64,000 bases of DNA, taken from positions 3,577,486-3,641,485 of the forward strand of contig NZ_CP014206.1 of assembly GCF_001563225.1 (NCBI RefSeq), read 5' to 3'. The stretch comes from Pseudodesulfovibrio indicus. GTDB taxonomy: Bacteria > Desulfobacterota > Desulfovibrionia > Desulfovibrionales > Desulfovibrionaceae. The stretch's first letter is position 1; every line of letters starts with the position of its first letter. Below the pieces are notes generated by a model. The model did no database searches. It was not told the origin of the DNA and saw nothing but the letters and a program-made list of their open reading frames with translations. Shown here in pieces: positions 42,245 through 51,631 of the stretch. Both the position numbers and the translations under genes were made by a program.

Positions 42245-42262
42245 TATGCCTGTTTAGGCATA
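42245..42262. promoter_or_regulatory. 18-bp dyad upstream of fdhE
   Basis: TATGCCT-GTTT-AGGCATA, perfect 7-4-7 dyad, about 80 bases before the -24 element of the fdhE promoter. The same 7-4-7 layout and TATGCC half-site occur at 48195-48212 upstream of fdhA. Candidate binding site of a formate dehydrogenase regulator. Confidence 0.6.
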
Positions 42263-42337
42263 ATGTTGCATATTTTTATCATTGCATTCCAGCATCTTAT
42301 TCACCATTGGTGTCAAATCATGAGTAAGTGCAAAACC

Positions 42338-42354
42338 TTTGGCATGTCCGTTGC
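42338..42354 (+). promoter_or_regulatory. Sigma-54 promoter of fdhE
   Basis: TTTGGCATGTCCGTTGC: GG at 42341-42342 and GC at 42353-42354 with exactly ten bases between, and near-consensus boxes TTGGCA and TTGC. A start near 42366 gives a leader of about 37 bases before ATG 42403. Suggests RpoN and an enhancer-binding protein drive fdhE. Confidence 0.75.
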
Positions 42355-42402
42355 GCGCCCCCTACTGTTTTGCGCATACGGAAAACACTCAGAGGAAACA
42401 TC

Positions 42403-43290
42403 ATGGAACGCAATCTCACCGATGAAACCCGCAGGCTCGACAAGAAGCTCGTCCAGCTGCGCAAAAAGTCCTACATCTCCGCTGAACTCATCGACCTGCT
42501 GGACGAGGTCTCCCACCTCCAGCTGGCCGCAGTGCCCGAGGCGCGGGTGGTCCTGCCGCCCGACGCGGAGCTGACCCCGCCCCAGGCCGCGATCCAGGGC
42601 GTTTCCCTGGTGGCCCGCGAGAACTTCCCCTTTGACCAGGCCCAGGCCGAAGACCTGCTGGTCAAGCTGCTGGGCATCGTCGGCAAGGTCGAGGGACCGC
42701 TCGGCAAGGGCGCGCGACTGGTGGCCAAGGCGCTGGACGATGGCGACCTGACCCCGGCCGACCTGTTCCGCCGCTTCCTGGACGACGACACCGAGTTCTT
42801 CGGCGAATGGGCCGAACGCATGCCCGAGGCACCGCGCACCCTGCCCTTCCTGGCCTTCGCGGCCATGGGCCCGTCCATCGAGGTGGCCGCCGGAATGCTG
42901 GCCGACAAGCTGCCCGAGATGAAGGTATCCCCGGTGGGAACCTGCCCCATCTGCGGGTCCATGCCGCTGATCTCCTCCCTGGAGCAGAAGGAGGGATTCC
43001 GCCACGCCACCTGCTCGTTCTGCCGCCACGACTACCGGATCAAGCGGATCACCTGTCCGATCTGCGGCGAGGACGACCACACCAAGCTGACCTTCTTCAC
43101 CGTGGACGAGGAGCCGGGCTTCCGGGTGGACGTCTGCGACTCGTGCAAGACCTACGTCAAGACCATCGACTTCCGGAACCTGGACCGCGTGGCGCTCCCG
43201 GTGCTGGACGACCTCGACTCCCTGGCGCTCGACTATGTCGCCGCCGGGCAGGGATACAGGCGGGCGACACTGTCCGCATGGGGATTCTAA
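42403..43290 (+). CDS. fdhE: Formate dehydrogenase accessory protein
   Basis: A 295-residue FdhE, needed to mature periplasmic formate dehydrogenase. The C-terminal rubredoxin-like zinc/iron region has four Cys pairs: GTCPICGS, ATCSFCRHDYR, ITCPICGE and VCDSCKTYVK. The N-terminal half is helical. ATG 42403 has AGAGGAAA upstream; an upstream in-frame ATG would start before the sigma-54 promoter transcript and was rejected. The transposase-like gene follows after 15 bases. Confidence 0.9.
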   Translation: MERNLTDETRRLDKKLVQLRKKSYISAELIDLLDEVSHLQLAAVPEARVVLPPDAELTPPQAAIQGVSLVARENFPFDQAQAEDLLVKLLGIVGKVEGPLGKGARLVAKALDDGDLTPADLFRRFLDDDTEFFGEWAERMPEAPRTLPFLAFAAMGPSIEVAAGMLADKLPEMKVSPVGTCPICGSMPLISSLEQKEGFRHATCSFCRHDYRIKRITCPICGEDDHTKLTFFTVDEEPGFRVDVCDSCKTYVKTIDFRNLDRVALPVLDDLDSLALDYVAAGQGYRRATLSAWGF

Positions 43291-43305
43291 CGACAGGAGG
43301 CGGCC

Positions 43306-44232
43306 ATGCCTGCCCTGAACCGGGAAACCTTGCACATGAATTCGCACATCATGCCCATACTGGACGCGCCGGGAACAGCCGACTTCGAATCGCTGCTCCA
43401 CGACGACGACAAGGCCAGGGAATACCTGCTCGCCAGGACCTGGCCCCTGGGCGACCCGTTCTGTCCCCGGTGCGGGCACCGCAAGGTTTACTCCCTGTCG
43501 GGCGAGCGGCTGCGCTGCGCCAGCTGCAAATACACCTTCCAGCCCTTTTCCGGGCGCTGGATCAACAACGGCGCCCTGACCCCCAGCGAGTGGCTGCGGC
43601 TCATCGTGCTCTTTGTCGAGGAGCGCTCGGTGCACCAGATGAAGGAGGAGCTGGGGCTCTCCTACAACACGGTCTACAAGGCCCTGACCGCCATCCGGTT
43701 CGCCATCCTGGCCCACGCCCTCGACGCCCGCCAGCTCATCAGCCAGGCCACCGGGCTGGACTCCTACCTCAAGGGCAACCGGCTGACCGGCGGCCCCCGC
43801 GAGATGCGCATGGACACCATCCCGGTCTACGGCATCCTGCGCCGCGAAGAGCTGGTCTTCGTGGACCTGGTGCCGGGGTTCCAGGCCGAGACCCTGTTCC
43901 ACTTCCACATGAACTTCCACCTGAAGCTCATCCGCTCCGGCAACCTGGTCTACACCGACCGGTACAAGGAGTACGACGCGCTCATGTTCTGCGGCAACGA
44001 CTCCCTGCCCTACGAGATCATCCGGCGCTATGACGAGCCGCCGCACATCGACGCGGTCCGGGACGAGTTCTGGGAATACGCCCAGGTGCGCATCAAGAAG
44101 TTCCGGGGCATCTCCTGCCAGCGGTTCCCGCTGTACATGAAGGAGCTGGAGTTCCGCTTCAACAACCGCGACAAGTCGCTGCCGGAGATTCTGGCCGCCT
44201 ACCTCTGCGCACTGGTTCCCTCCACGGATTAG
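43306..44232 (+). CDS. ISXO2/IS1595-type transposase-like protein, probably domesticated
   Basis: A 308-residue protein. It has the zinc ribbon of IS1595 transposases (FCPRCGHRKVY ... RCASCKYTF, residues about 50-75), a helix-turn-helix stretch (LGLSYNTVYKALTAI) and the DDE-like fold: VYTDRYKEY with the second Asp, and FWEYAQVRIKKFRGI ... LYMKELEFRFNNRD. The usual first motif DExYxGG reads LDSYLKG, and the third acidic residue region is altered (HIDAVRDEFW in place of HxNGxExFW), so catalysis is doubtful. No terminal inverted repeats or target duplications are seen, AGGAGG precedes the ATG, and it sits 15 bases after fdhE. It may now be a regulator or structural DNA-binding protein. Confidence 0.75.
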   Translation: MPALNRETLHMNSHIMPILDAPGTADFESLLHDDDKAREYLLARTWPLGDPFCPRCGHRKVYSLSGERLRCASCKYTFQPFSGRWINNGALTPSEWLRLIVLFVEERSVHQMKEELGLSYNTVYKALTAIRFAILAHALDARQLISQATGLDSYLKGNRLTGGPREMRMDTIPVYGILRREELVFVDLVPGFQAETLFHFHMNFHLKLIRSGNLVYTDRYKEYDALMFCGNDSLPYEIIRRYDEPPHIDAVRDEFWEYAQVRIKKFRGISCQRFPLYMKELEFRFNNRDKSLPEILAAYLCALVPSTD

Positions 44233-44317
44233 CACCACCCCGTCTGCGGGCGACCTCTGGACACGAAATGGTTTTTTACCGTAGTGTCATAATAATCGCC
44301 AACGCACGAGGTAGGTC

Positions 44318-45031
44318 ATGCCGTCTAAAATTCTCGTCATCGATGATGAACGGCCCACTCTGTCCATGTTCCGGCTCTTTCTTGAGGCCTATGGATACGA
44401 GGTTTTCACTGCGGAAAACGGCCCGGACGGCATTGATCTGTGCCGGGCACACGCCATTCCGCTCGTCCTGACCGACATCCGCATGCCCGGCATGGACGGC
44501 ATGGAGGTCCTCCGGCTGATCAAGGAGGGCAGCCCCGCCACCGAGGTCATCGTCATCACCGGCCACGGCGACATGGACCTGGCCCTGAAGGCCCTGTCCC
44601 TCGGCGCCACGGACTTCATCAACAAGCCGATCCGGCAGAGCAACATGGACGCCGCCCTGAAACGGGCCGAGGAGCGCATCCTCTATTCCCGCGACACGAA
44701 CACCGGCTACGCCGTCAGCCGTCGGGGAGGGATCGGCATGATCGAGCTGCGGGGCATCGTCAACTCCGTGGCCGAAAAACGGCTCGACCGCGCCTTTTCC
44801 GCCGCCCTGGAAGGGAGCGCGAAGCTGATCGTCTCCTTTGCGGGCAACACCGCCATCAACGGCGCGGGCATGGCCCTCCTCACCCAGCACCTGCTCTCCT
44901 GCCGGGACAACGGCACGCCCGTGGTCCTGGCCGAGCCCCCGGACAGCATCCGGAAATCCATCGAAATGGCGGGGCTCGAAAAACTGGCCCCCGTCCACGT
45001 GACCGTCGAGGAAGCCCTCGCCAACATCTGA
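44318..45031 (+). CDS. Response regulator with STAS-like output domain (paralog 1)
   Basis: A 237-residue protein: receiver (ILVIDDERPTLSMF, Asp53 in LTDIRMPGMDG, VIVITGHGDMDLA, FINKPIRQ) followed from about residue 138 by a STAS/anti-sigma-antagonist-like domain (GMIELRGIVNSV, KLIVSFAGNTAINGAGMALL). In partner-switching STAS proteins the phosphorylated Ser sits in DSSG; here the place reads INGAG, so serine phosphorylation is unlikely. There is no DNA-binding domain, so output must be by protein contact. A close paralog with identical architecture is at 55895-56608. Followed by a periplasmic thioredoxin, as is the paralog. Confidence 0.85.
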   Translation: MPSKILVIDDERPTLSMFRLFLEAYGYEVFTAENGPDGIDLCRAHAIPLVLTDIRMPGMDGMEVLRLIKEGSPATEVIVITGHGDMDLALKALSLGATDFINKPIRQSNMDAALKRAEERILYSRDTNTGYAVSRRGGIGMIELRGIVNSVAEKRLDRAFSAALEGSAKLIVSFAGNTAINGAGMALLTQHLLSCRDNGTPVVLAEPPDSIRKSIEMAGLEKLAPVHVTVEEALANI

Positions 45032-45058
45032 CCGTCAACCGCGAACGGAGTCCATCCC

Positions 45059-45598
45059 ATGACGAAACGCCTCACCATGGCCCTGCTGCTGACCGCCGCG
45101 CTCCTGTGCTCCCAGGCCCTGGCCGGACCGCCAGTGGCGGGCGAGGTCCTTCCCCCCCTGACCATCGCCCCCCTCGCCGTCGAGGGGGACTCGGCCATCC
45201 TCGGACTAAAGGACAACTGCGTCTTCACCCTGGCCGACATCAAGACCGAGTACGTGCTGATCGAAATCCTGGGGGTCTATTGCCCGGTCTGCCGCGAGAT
45301 GTCCTCGTCCCTGACCCGGCTGTACAAGCGGATCAGGAAGGCCCGGCTCGACGACCGCATCACCATGCTCGGCATCGCCGCCGGGGCCACCCCCATGGAA
45401 GTGCGGCACGTCCGGCCCAAGGACTACGTCTTCCCCGTGGCCCACGACACCGAATTCGAGATCCACAAGGCCCTGGCCGAACCCAAGACGCCCTACACCA
45501 TGATCGTGGACCGGGAGGGCAAGGTGTACTACGCCCACCTGGGGATCATCCCGGACTTCAACGCCTTTTTCCAGGAAATCCAGAACCTGGTAAAATGA
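45059..45598 (+). CDS. Periplasmic thioredoxin-like protein (TlpA/redoxin type)
   Basis: A 179-residue exported redoxin: signal peptide MTKRLTMALLLTAALLCSQALA, thioredoxin fold with CPVC at residues 75-78 (VYCPVCREM), cis-Pro region KTPYTMIVDREGKVYYAHLG. CxxC suggests disulfide exchange in the periplasm. It resembles the protein at 57204-57737 (shared YCPxC, GIxAGxTPxE, and DRE/MREGK phrases). Its stop overlaps the next start (ATGA). The following genes encode a rhodanese-like and a MauE/DoxX protein, a combination associated elsewhere with periplasmic redox maturation. Confidence 0.82.
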   Translation: MTKRLTMALLLTAALLCSQALAGPPVAGEVLPPLTIAPLAVEGDSAILGLKDNCVFTLADIKTEYVLIEILGVYCPVCREMSSSLTRLYKRIRKARLDDRITMLGIAAGATPMEVRHVRPKDYVFPVAHDTEFEIHKALAEPKTPYTMIVDREGKVYYAHLGIIPDFNAFFQEIQNLVK

Positions 45599-47334
45599 TC
45601 AGCCCCAAGGACACCCCGGACGCGCCCGGCTCCCTGACGGGTACGGATCGCCAGCTCTTCCACCTGAAGAGCCTCTACGAGGCGTCCAGCGCCCTGGCCG
45701 TCCCGGCCAGGCCTGCCGATCTCCTCCGCGCCTTCCTGCCCGTGGCCATGGGGCCCCTCGGCCTGACCTTCGGGTTCGGGATACTCCTCCACGCCGGGGC
45801 GCTGACCATCGAAAGCCTGGGCCTCCAGCCCCCGGCGGCGGACCTCTACCGCGCCTCCGGGCTGGACCTGGTGCACAAGTTCTTTCCCGAGGACGCCGCG
45901 CCCGCGCACCCGTCCCGCCCGGTCATCCTGGCCGGGGAGCACCTGTCCCACGACCCCAACCTGCCCATGGGCACCGCCGCGGTCATCGCCCTGAGCATGG
46001 GCGCCGGGACCCACGCGGTCCTGGGCTTCGGCCCCAAGGTGGCCGGGGTCCCCCTGGACGCGGACGAGACCCGGCTGCTGGACGGTCTGGCCTCTGTCCT
46101 GGGCCACGCCCTGAACAACGCCACGGCCATGGAGTGCGTCCGGGACCTGAACACCTCCCTGGCCCGCAGGAACGACGACCTGCACCGCGCCCTGGGGGAA
46201 TCGGAACGGGCCAGGGAAGCCCTCTCCAGGCACACCCTCCAGCTCCGCGCACTCTACGAGACCACCCTGGAGATGATCGACATCCACGAGCCGGGGGGCA
46301 TTCTCGACGCCTTCCTGCTCTCCCTCATGGGGACCCTGTCCTTCACGGGCGGCTGGATAGCCCTGTACGGGCCGGGTCACGGCCGGGCCGAAGCGGTCTG
46401 CCGGGGGCTGGCCCCGTGCGTCAGGGAGGAGCTCGTTTCCGAAACGGGCCGGGGAGCCGTGCTGGCGCGGTTCGTGGCCCTCAAGGACCGCATCCCGCAT
46501 GCCAATCACGCCTGCCTGGTGGACGATCCCGAGGAGCGGCAGGCGCTCCCGGCCCAGGCGGACGCGGCCGTGCTCTTCACCTTGGACCAGGGCTGGCAGG
46601 GGGCCATCGGCCTGAGCGCCCCGCTGTCCGGCGAGCGGGACGACGAACTTCTGGACGAAGACGCCCGGCAGCTGCTGCACTCGCTGGTCGCGAATTTCAT
46701 GGTCACCCTGGGCAACGCCCGGCAGCTGGACCTCATCCGGGAGCTGAACTCGGAGCTGGCCGCCCGCAACGTGGACCTCCAGACCACCCTGGACGCCCTG
46801 ACCTCGGCCAAGCGGGAGATCGACGTCCAGACCAAGGCCAAGGAGCACCTGGTGGCCCTGGTGCACGGCGAGGTGGAGCGGGTCTGGCGGGCCTCCTGGC
46901 TGGACATCTGCCTGATCCTGCTGGCCGGAGCGACCCTCGGCATCCTCTACAACCTGTCCAGCCCGGGCGGGATAGACCTGGTGCCGAAGTCTCTCCTGGC
47001 CCCGCCGCCGGTCATGATCGAAGCGGCGGAGGCCAGGCGGCTGGCCCGCGACGACAAGGCCGTGATCATCGACGCCCGGCCCGGCGACTTCTTCCTGCAA
47101 GGGCACATCCCGGACGCCGTCAACCTGCCCGAGGACCTGTTCGAGTTCGTCTATTCCATGAAGCTGTCCGACCTGGACCCGGCGGTGCCGCTGCTGGTCT
47201 ACGGCCGGAACATCAGCCGCCGCTACGACGCCGACGTGGCCAGGCAGCTGGAGCTGCTCGGCCACGAACGGGTGCTGCTCATCAAGGGCGGGCTGGACGC
47301 CTGGAATGGCCTCGGCCCGGAGGAGGCCCCATGA
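45595..47334 (+). CDS. Two-GAF membrane protein with inactive rhodanese domain
   Basis: A 579-residue protein of unusual architecture. Two GAF-like domains (about residues 20-175 and 225-390), each followed by coiled coil (NTSLARRNDDLHRALGESER; ELNSELAARNVDLQTTLDAL), one membrane segment (DICLILLAGATLGILYNL, about 437-455), then a rhodanese-like domain (about 466-577: MIEAAEARRLARDDKAVIID, GHIPDAVNLPEDLF). The rhodanese loop, normally with catalytic Cys, reads LLVYGRNISRRYD, so Cys is replaced by Gly. With one TM, the rhodanese domain is predicted on the periplasmic side. No kinase or cyclase output. Overlaps its neighbours on both sides. Function unknown; a sensor or scaffold for the redox genes is an inference. 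Confidence 0.75.
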   Translation: MISPKDTPDAPGSLTGTDRQLFHLKSLYEASSALAVPARPADLLRAFLPVAMGPLGLTFGFGILLHAGALTIESLGLQPPAADLYRASGLDLVHKFFPEDAAPAHPSRPVILAGEHLSHDPNLPMGTAAVIALSMGAGTHAVLGFGPKVAGVPLDADETRLLDGLASVLGHALNNATAMECVRDLNTSLARRNDDLHRALGESERAREALSRHTLQLRALYETTLEMIDIHEPGGILDAFLLSLMGTLSFTGGWIALYGPGHGRAEAVCRGLAPCVREELVSETGRGAVLARFVALKDRIPHANHACLVDDPEERQALPAQADAAVLFTLDQGWQGAIGLSAPLSGERDDELLDEDARQLLHSLVANFMVTLGNARQLDLIRELNSELAARNVDLQTTLDALTSAKREIDVQTKAKEHLVALVHGEVERVWRASWLDICLILLAGATLGILYNLSSPGGIDLVPKSLLAPPPVMIEAAEARRLARDDKAVIIDARPGDFFLQGHIPDAVNLPEDLFEFVYSMKLSDLDPAVPLLVYGRNISRRYDADVARQLELLGHERVLLIKGGLDAWNGLGPEEAP

Positions 47335-47810
47335 CCGCCGCGATCCGCGCCCTCCTGACCAGCCCCTGGCTGGCCCTGGCCTTCCGCCTCTACCTCGGCG
47401 GGCTGTTCGTCTACGCGGCCATGTACAAGATCAACTACGCCGCCGAATTCAGCACGACCATCGCCTCCTACCGCCTGATCCCCTATTGGGCGGTCAACGT
47501 CATGGCCCTGGTCATGCCGTGGACCGAGATCATCTGCGGGGCGATGCTGCTCCTCGGCGTGCGGGTCAAGTCGGTCACCGTGATCATCGGCGGCCTCCTC
47601 TCCGTCTTCACCCTGGCCATCTTCATCAACCTTCTCCGCAACGCGCCCATCAGTTGCGGATGCTTCCACACCCTCGAGGACCCCATCAGCTGGTGGACCG
47701 TGCTCCGCGACCTGACCTGGATCGGCATGACCGTCCACGTGCACTACTTCGACAGCGTCCTCCAGACCGATCAGCTGTTCCTCGGGAAACTCAGAAGGAT
47801 ACACACATGA
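47331..47810 (+). CDS. MauE/DoxX-family membrane protein
   Basis: A 159-residue protein with four membrane segments. Family phrases: FRLYLGGLFVYAAMYKI, PWTEIICGAMLLLGVRVKS and APISCGCFH, the CxC motif in the last loop typical of MauE-like proteins, which help form disulfides or quinone cofactors in the periplasm. It overlaps both neighbours by four bases. It probably works with the periplasmic thioredoxin at 45059-45598. Confidence 0.82.
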   Translation: MTAAIRALLTSPWLALAFRLYLGGLFVYAAMYKINYAAEFSTTIASYRLIPYWAVNVMALVMPWTEIICGAMLLLGVRVKSVTVIIGGLLSVFTLAIFINLLRNAPISCGCFHTLEDPISWWTVLRDLTWIGMTVHVHYFDSVLQTDQLFLGKLRRIHT

Positions 47811-48121
47811 CCCGCCGCGACCTGCTGCTCCTGATGCTGCTCCCTGCCTTCACGGCCTGCGCCCCCGACAGGGACACCCTGCCCGGGGACTACTCGGCGA
47901 GGAACGGGGAGATCGAGATCCGACTCAGGCTGGGCAAGGACGGAAAGGGCGTCTGGTCCACGGACACCGACGAGATACCGTTCAAGTGGAGCCGCCGCGA
48001 CGAGGGCCATATCTGGCTGCACACCGTTGCCGGCGGGGTCATTCCCGGCATCATCGAGGGGGAGGACATCCGCCTCACCCTTCCCGGCGTTCCCCCGCTG
48101 GTCTTCACCCCCCTGCCCTAG
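47807..48121 (+). CDS. Small lipoprotein, unknown function
   Basis: A 104-residue lipoprotein: MTRRDLLLLMLLPAFTAC with lipobox FTAC. The mature part (GDYSARNGEIEIRLRLGKDGKGVWST) is beta-rich, like a small lipocalin-like or calycin sheet. Last gene of the redox group; the next gene starts 234 bases later behind a promoter-like region. Confidence 0.72.
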   Translation: MTRRDLLLLMLLPAFTACAPDRDTLPGDYSARNGEIEIRLRLGKDGKGVWSTDTDEIPFKWSRRDEGHIWLHTVAGGVIPGIIEGEDIRLTLPGVPPLVFTPLP

Positions 48122-48194
48122 CTCGCGTCGCCCCCTTTCCCGCCTGTTTTTTCCTCCGGGAAGCCGGTGTCAAACCGTGGGGCGGAAATCAATT

Positions 48195-48212
48195 TATGCC
48201 AGAATTGACATA
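48195..48212. promoter_or_regulatory. 18-bp dyad upstream of fdhA
   Basis: TATGCCA-GAAT-TGACATA: 7-4-7 dyad with one mismatched pair, extended by T/A on each flank (TTTATG...CATAAA, 48193-48214). Same architecture and half-site as the dyad upstream of fdhE (42245-42262). Its right half contains TTGACA (48205-48210), which with TATCGC 17 bases later could be a weak promoter, so the binding site would overlap the -35 box. Confidence 0.6.
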
Positions 48213-48354
48213 AAGTAGACGCAGCAATATCGCCATTCTGCTAAAAATAGCATGTTTTTTCGTGTGTAAAAACCGTTGCAAGAGCAAGTTCTTTGCCCGC
48301 CTGACCATTTTCCCTCATAAGGGGGATAACCAAAAAAATGGGAGAGGAACGCGA

Positions 48355-48582
48355 ATGCGCTTGAACACCAACCTTATGCCGGCTTCGGCCCAGACAACCA
48401 TGCCCTTTGCGGGCTTGGGTTTCGCCGTGGCCGAGGTCCGTGAAGCGGCCAAGTCGATGAGCCCGGTTCCTCACTGCCATGGTGGCAGCCAGGACGTCGT
48501 CGCCGCCGCTTTCGGGCCTGCCGTTCAAGTCGGCGGCTACAAACTGCTCGTGACCCTGGGTCGCGAGATCCGCGGGCGCTGA
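48355..48582 (+). CDS. Small protein upstream of fdhA, unknown function
   Basis: A 75-residue reading frame with a good ribosome site (GGAGAGGA six bases before ATG 48355) and codon use like the neighbours. No signal peptide is obvious; the sequence contains HCHGGS and no known motif. It ends 22 bases before the fdhA ATG, whose AGGAGG lies in the gap, so it should be co-transcribed with the formate dehydrogenase. It could be a leader peptide or a small accessory protein. I do not recognise it. Confidence 0.6.
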   Translation: MRLNTNLMPASAQTTMPFAGLGFAVAEVREAAKSMSPVPHCHGGSQDVVAAAFGPAVQVGGYKLLVTLGREIRGR

Positions 48583-48604: not shown

Positions 48605-51600
48605 ATGCACACCAACCGTAGGAACTTCCTCAAGCTCTCCGCAGTCGCGGCCACGGCCACGGCTTTCGGCGGGTTGGGATTCGGTTGCAAGGCCGAGACG
48701 GCTCCCCTGCCCGACCGCGCCGCAGCCCTGGACCCCAAGTGGAGCAAACAGACCACCACCATCTGCTGCTACTGTGCCGTGGGTTGCGGGCTGGTCGTCA
48801 ACACGTCCCTGAAGGACATGAAGGCGATCAACGTTGAAGGCGACCCGGACCACCCGATCAACGAAGGCGCGCTGTGCGCCAAGGGCGCGTCCATCTGGCA
48901 GCTGGCCGAAAACGACCGCCGCCCGGACTCCGTCCTCTACAGGGCTCCCTACGCCAAGGAATTCAAGAAGGTCTCCCTGTCCTGGGCGCTCGAAACCATC
49001 GCCCGCCGGATCAAGGACACCCGCGACAAGACCTGGACCGAGAAAAACGCCAAGGGCCAGGTGGTCAACCGCTGCGACGGCATCGCCTCCGTCGGTTCGG
49101 CCGCTCTCGACAACGAGGAGTGCTGGGCTTACCAGACCATGCTCCGCAGCCTCGGCCTGGTGTATGTGGAACACCAGGCTAGGATCTGACACAGCGCGAC
49201 TGTTGCGGCTCTGGCAGAGTCGTTCGGACGCGGTGCGATGACCAATCACTGGATCGACATCCAGAACTCTGATTGCATTCTTATCATGGGCAGCAACGCT
49301 GCCGAAAACCATCCCATCTCTTTCAAGTGGGTGACCAGGGCGCAGGAAAAGGGCGCAACCCTGATCCACGTCGACCCCCGCTTCACCAGGACCTCGGCCA
49401 AGGCCGACTTCTACGCCGGCATCCGTTCGGGCGCCGACATCGCCGTCCTCGGCGGCATGATCAAATACATCCTGGAAAAGGACCTGATCTTCAAGGACTA
49501 CGTGGTTGACTATACCAACGCGTCCTTCATCGTCGGCGACAAGTACAAGTTCGAGGACGGCATGTTCTCGGGCTACAACGAGAAGACCCGGAGCTACGAC
49601 AAGTCCACCTGGGCCTTTGCCATGGACGCCGACGGCAATCCGAAAAAAGACCCGACCCTCCAGGACCCCAACTGCGTGTACCAGCTCATGAAGAAGCACT
49701 ACTCGCGGTACGACCTGGACAAGGTCGTCTCCATCTCGGGCATGAACAAGGCCGACCTGGTCAAGCTGTACGAGACGTACGCGGCCACCGGCAAGGCGGA
49801 CAAGGCCGGGACCATCATGTACGCCATGGGCTGGACCCAGCACACCGTCGGCGTGCAGAACATCCGCTGCATGGCCATGATCCAGCTGCTGCTGGGCAAC
49901 ATCGGCATCGCCGGCGGCGGCGTCAACGCCCTGCGCGGCGAATCCAACGTCCAGGGCTCCACCGACCACTGCCTGCTGTACCACATCATCCCCGGCTACC
50001 TGGCGACCCCCCAGGCCTCTCAGCCCGACCTGGCCACGTACAACAAGGCCAACACCCCGGTCTCCAACGACCCGAAATCCGCCAACTGGTGGCAGAACTT
50101 CCCGAAGTACTCCGCGTCGCTCATCAAGTCCATGTGGCAGAACGACACCCCGGAGGACGCCTACCAGTTCCTGCCCCGCCTCGACTCCCTGTCGGCCATG
50201 GAATATTCCTGGCTGACCCTGTTCGACAAGATGGAAAAGGGCCAGTTCAAGGGGCTGCTCTCCTGGGGCATGAACCCCGCCTGTTCCGGCGCCAACGCCG
50301 AAAAGAACAGGAAGGCCATGGCCAACCTCGACTGGCTGGTGAACGTCAACATCTTCCCCAACGAAACCGGCTGGTTCTGGGAAGGACCGGGATTGGACCC
50401 CTCGACCATCAAGACCGAGGTCTTCTTCCTGCCCTGCGCCGTGTCCATCGAGAAGGAAGGGTCCGTCACCAACTCCGGCCGCTGGATGCAGTGGCGCTAC
50501 AAGGGCCCGGACGCGCCCAACGGGCAGAAGCCCGACGGCGACCTGATGTACGAGCTGATGAAGGAAATCCAGCATCTGTACGAGAAGGAAGGCGGCGTCT
50601 ATCCGAAGCCCATCACCCGTCTGACCTGGGACGCCATCGCCACCGACGGCGTGTTCGATGCCCACAAGACGGCCAAGCTGATCAACGGTCACTTCACCCG
50701 TGACGTCGAGATCAAGGGCAAGCTCTACAAGAAGGGCCAGCAGGTCCCGAGCTTCGCCTTCCTGCAGGCCGACGGCTCCACCGCCTCCGGCAACTGGCTG
50801 TACTGCCACTCCTACACCGACGCCGGCAACATGGCCGCGCGCCGCGACCTGACCCAGACCCCGGAGCAGGCCAACATCGGCCTGTACCCGAACTTCTCCT
50901 GGTGCTGGCCCGTCAACCGCCGCGTGCTGTACAACCGCGCCTCGGTCGACCTTCAGGGCAAGCCCTGGAACCCGCAAAAGGCGGTCATCGCCTGGAACGG
51001 CGAGAAGTGGGTGGGCGACGTGCCCGACGGCGGCTGGGCCCCCGGCACCAAGTACGCCTTCATCATGCGCAAGCACGGCCACGGCCAGCTCTTCGGCCCC
51101 GGCCGCGCCGACGGCCCGCTGCCCGAGTACTACGAGCCTCTGGAATGCCCGGTCAAGGAGCATCCGTTCTCCAAGACCCTGCACAACCCCACCGCGCTGA
51201 CCTTCGACGCCGAGGAAAAGGCCGTGTGCGATCCCAGGTATCCCCTGGTCGGCACCACCTACCGCGTCACCGAGCACTGGCAGACCGGCGTCATGACCCG
51301 CAACCAGACCTGGTTGACCGAGGCCGAGCCCCAGGTGTTCGTGGAGATGAGCCCCGAGCTGGCCGAACTCCGCGGCATCGAGAACGGCGAAAAGGTCATG
51401 GTGGACTCCCTGCGCGGGACCATCTGGGCCAAGGCCATCGTCACCAAGCGGCTCAAGCCGTTCACCGTCCAGGGCACCATCGTCCATCAGGTCGGCCTGC
51501 CCTGGCACTTCGGCTGGACCTGGCCCAAGGATGGCGGCGATTCCGCCAACATCCTGACCCCGTCCGTTGGCGACCCGAACACGGGTATTCCCGAAACCAA

Positions 51601-51631
51601 GGCCTTCATGGTCAACGTCCGCAAGGCGTAA
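48605..51631 (+). CDS. fdhA: Formate dehydrogenase alpha subunit, selenocysteine-containing
   Basis: A 1008-residue periplasmic Mo/W-bis-MGD formate dehydrogenase oxidising formate to CO2. Twin-arginine signal RRNFLK (residues 5-10). A [4Fe-4S] binding set CCYCAVGCG near 54-61 with CAKG near 90. The in-frame TGA at 49187-49189 is selenocysteine 195, in QARIUHSATVAAL, followed by the conserved GRGAMTNHWIDI and MGSNAAENHP. After it the reading frame continues unbroken to 51631, including the C-terminal molydopterin-dinucleotide domain (VFVEMSPELAELRG). AGGAGG precedes the ATG. An automatic caller would split it into two genes at the TGA. Partner FdhB follows after 12 bases. Confidence 0.95.
49190..49232 (+). 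other. Bacterial SECIS element
   Basis: Directly after the UGA codon the message can fold with GACUGUUGC (about 49198-49206) pairing imperfectly with GGCAGAGUC (about 49212-49220) around a GGCUCU apical region. Position and loop type match SelB-binding SECIS hairpins in formate dehydrogenase mRNAs. Pairing was done by eye. Confidence 0.6.

Follow-up and report, generated by a model that had tools for sequence, protein, structure and literature searches.

The promoter regions of fdhE and fdhA in Pseudodesulfovibrio indicus share a dyad, and this sharing is far from chance. Comparison of genomes showed a conserved candidate operator of fixed geometry and a list of its targets; both the operator and its regulon are very likely real. 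Single-domain ModE proteins are the most likely owners of the operator, with TaoR next. On balance, we favor the reading that the dyads are single-domain ModE operators and belong to one regulon, which would comprise molybdenum and tungsten (Mo/W) pyranopterin enzymes together with molybdate and tungstate uptake.

Dyads in the fdhE and fdhA promoter regions

The window is the whole stretch of 64,000 nucleotides that was analyzed. The first-pass annotation had described a shared 7-4-7 dyad upstream of fdhE and fdhA, and both copies were found, at 42245-42262 and 48195-48212. As a 7-4-7 inverted repeat the first copy is perfect; in the second, six of the seven positions pair. The features of the two regions are as follows.

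42245-42262, no strand: dyad 1, TATGCCTGTTTAGGCATA, upstream of fdhE
42310-42342, plus strand: two copies of element B, GTGTCAAATCATGAG and GTGCAAAACCTTTGG, 18 bp apart, reaching the predicted fdhE -35 box
42339-42367, plus strand: predicted fdhE promoter, TTGGCA, 17 bp, CTACTG (orthologues aligned by eye)
42403-43290, plus strand: fdhE, formate dehydrogenase accessory protein, target gene (TIGR01562 E 2.9e-24, with a score below the family's curated cut-off)
48166-48180, plus strand: copy of element B, GGTGTCAAACCGTGG, beside dyad 2
48195-48212, no strand: dyad 2, TATGCCAGAATTGACATA, upstream of the fdhA operon
48293-48321, plus strand: predicted fdhA-operon promoter, TTGCCC, 17 bp, CATAAG (orthologues aligned by eye)
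48355-48582, plus strand: conserved 75-codon ORF ahead of fdhA, without a match in a Pfam search
48605-51631, plus strand: fdhA, formate dehydrogenase-N alpha, target gene (TIGR01553 on either side of a TGA)

A frame check found a single in-frame TGA in fdhA, at 49187-49189, and it is probably read as selenocysteine. The 75-codon ORF probably opens the fdhA transcript. It was present in 24 of the 30 fdhA loci of the genus by a simple pattern, and its product has a PFAGLGF core and GYxLLVTLGREIRGR at the C-terminus. Relatives of this ORF were seen before another fdhA of the same genome (L008) and also in G061. Matches to fdhE occurred in all 36 genomes of the genus, in some of them as a distant paralogue only. 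Directly 3' of fdhE (43306-44232) is an IS1595-type transposase-like gene with a zinc ribbon and a DDE domain. Genes like it are also part of the fdh clusters in G009, G057 and G061, a pattern that resembles domestication of a transposase. From the by-eye alignment of orthologues we infer the fdhE and fdhA-operon promoters listed above, and relative to the predicted transcription starts the dyads would be centered at about -120 (fdhE) and about -124 (fdhA operon).

Within the 64-kb window, the pattern TATGCCW-N4-WGRCATA with up to two mismatches matched only dyads 1 and 2, and shuffled windows gave 0.55 matches on average. The significance from the window alone is weak, and the strength of the case comes from conservation. 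From the 36 genus genomes, the 30 best loci were taken for each of fdhE, fdhA, aor, the moeA-like gene before mop, modE1 and modE2. TATGYC-N6-GRCATA with at most one mismatch was found upstream of 29 of the 30 fdhE orthologues, at -145 to -207 from the start, and the remaining locus has two mismatches. The same pattern was found upstream of 28 of the 29 readable fdhA orthologues, at -408 to -427, with one true miss; the thirtieth locus was cut by a contig end. Thus, on the conservation check proposed in the first-pass annotation, the dyad is kept in orthologous positions. The moeA-mop set had the pattern at this threshold in 28 of 30 loci, and the element is often doubled or tripled there at intervals of about 80 bp. 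First-order Markov copies gave an expectation of only 0.03 to 0.10 loci per set, and gene bodies gave none. At fdhE and fdhA the spacer was always six, as lengths of 2-5 and 7-12 gave no loci; the same control on moeA gave five loci at length 11 and otherwise none. When the half-site was permuted, the true one ranked first of 360 for fdhE, fdhA and moeA. A matrix built from 134 distinct sites has the consensus ATTATGYC-N6-GRCATAAT, about 22 bp long.

Sites at other molybdenum and tungsten genes

The relaxed pattern TRTGYY-N6-RRCAYA gave 16 sites in the single-contig genome of 3.97 Mb, compared with two for the reversed control. Nine of these sites adjoin Mo/W genes.

Window dyad 1: site at fdhE
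Window dyad 2: site at fdhA
3539200: site at an fdhA paralogue
1556018: site at an fdhA paralogue
2825268: site at modE1-fdhA3
2443406: site at aor
3017162 and 3017242: two sites at moeA-mop
2016959: site at wtpA (wtpABC)

The remaining sites are at 1389658, 1457218, 1793269, 2617353, 3243928, 3552402 and 3881289. Site 1793269 precedes a gene of the aldehyde dehydrogenase family by 34 bp, and site 3552402 is inside a gene. The scan that the first-pass annotation had proposed thus returned few sites and not numerous, random ones, although seven of the 16 have no Mo/W gene beside them.

An exact-site scan of 78 genomes found one to six sites in each of the 36 genus members, and the controls were mostly zero. 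We then considered 40 loci, which are most of the listed sites beyond those at fdhE and fdhA (G040, G049, G059, G071 and some second places were omitted). Around these sites, 27 of 44 copies were at Mo/W genes and 17 were elsewhere; outside the genus, 19 of 28 were at Mo/W genes. The genes counted in the 27 were aor, fdhA, moeA-mop, tupA, MobA-like and modE-linked genes. The MobA-like label was given by inspection, and the other gene labels of the loci were partly given by inspection and partly checked by families. In other genera, tupA is also preceded by the dyad.

Of the 30 aor loci of the genus, 25 have the site between -128 and -153 when up to two mismatches are allowed, and here it is asymmetric and weaker (TATGYC...RRCAYA). 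In the aor permutation test, TATGCY (17 loci) outranked TATGYC (10 loci). The modE2-tupA dyad was found in 25 of 30 loci by a loose pattern. For modE1, a site with at most one mismatch was present in 12 of 30 loci, and in many of the site-less loci modE1 is not first in its operon. The aor upstream region is shared with a divergent 152-aa gene (L009 3586-4044), which belongs to no known Pfam family; similar genes are found there in several genera. In G004, an IS1595-like gene sits between the dyad and aor (L243 / L136).

ModE proteins and other candidate regulators

The genome contains exactly two ORFs of TIGR00637, ModE1 and ModE2, and a dyad is near each. ModE1 adjoins fdhA3, while ModE2 is encoded within an aor-moaD-moeB(ThiF)-modE2-tupA cluster. 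Both have the N-terminal winged-helix domain of ModE (TIGR00637 E 2.4e-14 and 4.8e-12, neither score reaching the curated 98.5-bit cut-off), and the nearest solved structures are ModE (2ijl, E 3e-6; 1b9m, 3e-5). The TOBE/Mop molybdate-binding domain is absent from both. Since each protein has 130 residues and HTH_1 is the only Pfam domain above cut-off, they correspond to the DNA-binding part of a ModE-like protein and fall short of a full ModE.

Dyads also accompany modE genes in other genera. We chose 38 loci outside the genus solely because they hold a single-domain modE gene, regardless of the motif; 12 of them had TRTGYY-N6-RRCAYA within 250 bp of modE, and the reversed pattern and three permuted half-sites gave none at this distance. 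A wider set of 44 loci gave 13, the additional one, L133, having been selected through the motif. In four loci of family f5 the dyad ends about 5-11 bp ahead of the modE start, in four loci of family f2 it is between modE and tupA, and in G041 it is between modE and fdhA. The modE-adjacent dyads of other families mostly have TATGYT rather than TATGYC, and they have the same TATG...CATA ends and the same spacing as the window dyads. A modE gene was within 6 kb of 14 of 71 listed sites (0.43 expected); since modE genes are among the target genes, this nearness is not independent evidence. By their positions, we regard the modE-adjacent dyads as putative marks of autoregulation and local control. 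A close variant, RTGYTR-N4-WAACA, follows modE1 at a distance of at most 80 bp in 28 of the 30 genus loci. A second, highly conserved dyad, TRTGTTA-NNNN-TAACAYA, lies between modE1 and fdhA3 (L019-L048), and its exact copies were confined to this genus among the 78 genomes scanned.

The distribution of exact TATGYC sites outside the genus was also compared with that of ModE. There were 30 sites in 31 genomes with ModE (reversed control 15) and four in 11 genomes without it (reversed control two). In families f2, f3 and f5, exact TATGYC sites at Mo/W genes are missing from the majority of genomes, though many have ModE. Within the genus, G004 and G023 are without ModE1 and G031 is without ModE2 (each genome at least 99% complete), and all three keep the dyads at fdhE and fdhA; therefore, either ModE protein must be supposed sufficient. 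In G076, no ModE was detected, yet a perfect dyad precedes an fdhA-like gene; this genome is 89% complete and 6% contaminated.

ModE controls molybdenum-enzyme genes, and the DNA-binding domain of ModE from E. coli and G. sulfurreducens is of the same family, TIGR00637, as ModE1 and ModE2, which differ from those proteins in being without the TOBE/molybdate-binding domain. Control of molybdenum transport is alike in the two systems, whereas the targets here also include tungsten enzymes and formate dehydrogenases. The motif cGGTCACg-N14-cGTGACCg, which we take to be the TunR site, is likewise an inverted repeat before Desulfovibrio Mo/W transport genes. Its sequence and spacing are unrelated to the dyad, and the 134-site consensus differs from it. 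FNR/CRP-type sites (TTGAT-N4-ATCAA) are also inverted repeats with a short spacer; such a site was rejected because half-site and register differ. A sigma-54 promoter at fdhE was rejected as well, because the GG...GC spacing that follows the dyad is 11 where 12 would be needed. PMC545781 gives the cGGTCACg-N14-cGTGACCg motif as a Desulfovibrio 'ModE' motif and TATATA-N6-TATATA as the E. coli ModE consensus. The dyad and the E. coli operator have the same 6-6-6 geometry and the same TAT...ATA ends, but the inner half-site is GYC instead of ATA, and the dyad consensus differs from the ModE operator sequence ATCGNTATATA-N6-TATATANCGAT. The first-pass statement that the dyad does not match ModE is thus true of the letters, but geometry and ends agree, and dyads are concentrated at modE genes of the single-domain type.

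The next candidate is TaoR (DVU3193 in D. vulgaris), which would bind the dyad, with aor and the formate dehydrogenases as activated and tup as repressed targets; we consider this a possible but distinctly less probable reading. In Rajeev's 2019 study, TaoR reportedly activates aor and represses tupABC in D. vulgaris. Such activation and repression would fit the placing of the dyads, at about -60 for aor and on the -35 box for modE2-tupA, and candidate sites are found at TaoR-type targets (aor 25/30, modE2-tupA 25/30, loose patterns). A third factor that is always present would also explain G004, G023, G031 and G076 without redundancy. Targets in common are aor and tungstate uptake, but the protein family of TaoR (HTH_17 plus PBP-like) differs from ModE. 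A regular-expression scan of 294 loci found no HTH_17-like protein, a weak argument as TaoR need not be linked to its targets, and the dyads of other families just before modE or modE-fmdE operons point to ModE autoregulation instead. TaoR is cited as a regulator of aor and tungstate uptake in PMC10102598, and its domains are given as excisionase-like HTH_17 and periplasmic-binding-protein-like in PMC11980592.

Another regulator of Mo/W enzymes, for example one that responds to formate, selenium or redox state, might bind the dyad; we think this doubtful. Element B suggests at least one further regulator or activator at several of these promoters. It has the sequence GTGYCAAACCNTG (GTGYCAAACC), often in tandem at about 18-23 bp, and is common to the fdhE, fdhA, modE1 and other fdh promoters and in part to modE2. 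A loose pattern found it in 28 of 30 fdhE loci (shuffles 0-1), 19 of 30 fdhA loci and 8 of 30 modE2 loci, and in no aor or moeA windows. Further copies in this genome are at G000:C1:1415661, 1415684, 2825336 and 2825500. The targets of the dyad itself (aor, moeA-mop, tupA, wtpA) share Mo/W cofactors and oxyanion transport and not formate or selenium, which argues against a regulator of this kind.

The first-pass annotation had proposed a formate dehydrogenase regulon. The operator is indeed common to both promoters, and the best-conserved sites are those of fdhE and fdhA; a regulon limited to formate dehydrogenase is nevertheless very improbable. The moeA-mop site is equally conserved (28/30) and the weaker aor form is found in 25 of 30 loci, and conserved sites are also present at modE2-tupA and modE1, with wtpA added in the own genome. 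A chance resemblance, for which one could cite the 13 of 100 shuffled windows that reach at least two perfect-palindrome matches at three mismatches, or an RNA leader hairpin can practically be dismissed: conservation, the strict spacer and the 360-permutation test speak against the former, and against the latter the half-sites vary (C/T vs A/G in the 134-site matrix) without base pairs being kept and the predicted fdhE and fdhA transcripts begin only downstream of the dyads. An Rfam search of the window and six loci gave no match.

Predicted regulation and its meaning

If single-domain ModE proteins own the operator, a dimer (about 130 residues, DNA-binding domain only) would bind ATTATGYC-N6-GRCATAAT, and ModE1 and ModE2 are assumed to be both able to read it. 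The regulatory outcome would then be set by the position of the dyad. In by-eye alignments of orthologues, the aor dyad lies behind the TTGACA-N17-TATAAT-like boxes of a predicted promoter, with its center about 60 bp upstream of the likely start. This position, about -60 before a near-consensus promoter, would suit activation, as would about -120 at fdhE and fdhA, and the latter sites probably act in activation. The right half of the modE2-tupA dyad forms the -35 box of the predicted promoter, and the modE1 dyad covers the likely transcription start of its predicted promoter (both from orthologues aligned by eye). The wtpA dyad is 32 bp upstream of its gene. These three arrangements would suit repression. 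When the metal or the finished cofactor is plentiful, enzyme synthesis would be raised and uptake would be lowered.

An FmdE-domain gene is often next to modE1-type genes (14 of 30 genus modE1 loci and 8 of 38 others). Such neighbors were seen in L138 (1431-2963), L205, L207, L209, L215 and L181, and in L138 (1431-2963) the FmdE domain is fused to a MoCF (molybdopterin-binding) domain. It is possible that the FmdE-domain protein is a sensor partner of the ModE1-type protein. A bolder and rather unlikely proposal is that a ModE which has lost its metal-binding domain responds, by way of an FmdE-MoCF sensor partner, to finished pyranopterin cofactor instead of the oxyanion. The partner would signal the availability of tungsten or molybdenum cofactor to the ModE dimer, and there would be one dyad family, with TATGYC at the enzymes and TATGYT at modE and tup.

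A search of openly licensed PMC articles, a scope outside which the TunR 2013, TaoR 2019 and ModE-element 2003 papers fall, found no description of the motif. PMC545781 (2004) reports single-domain ModE genes in Desulfovibrio, found no sites of the E. coli ModE type there and describes the sensing mechanism of single-domain ModE as not clear. What is new here is a concrete candidate operator with a list of Mo/W-enzyme targets that includes formate dehydrogenases, together with a position-based prediction of which targets would be activated and which repressed. The question raised in 2004 about single-domain ModE in Desulfovibrio thus becomes experimentally testable. If the regulator is TaoR instead, fdhE and fdhA would be tied to the TaoR regulon.
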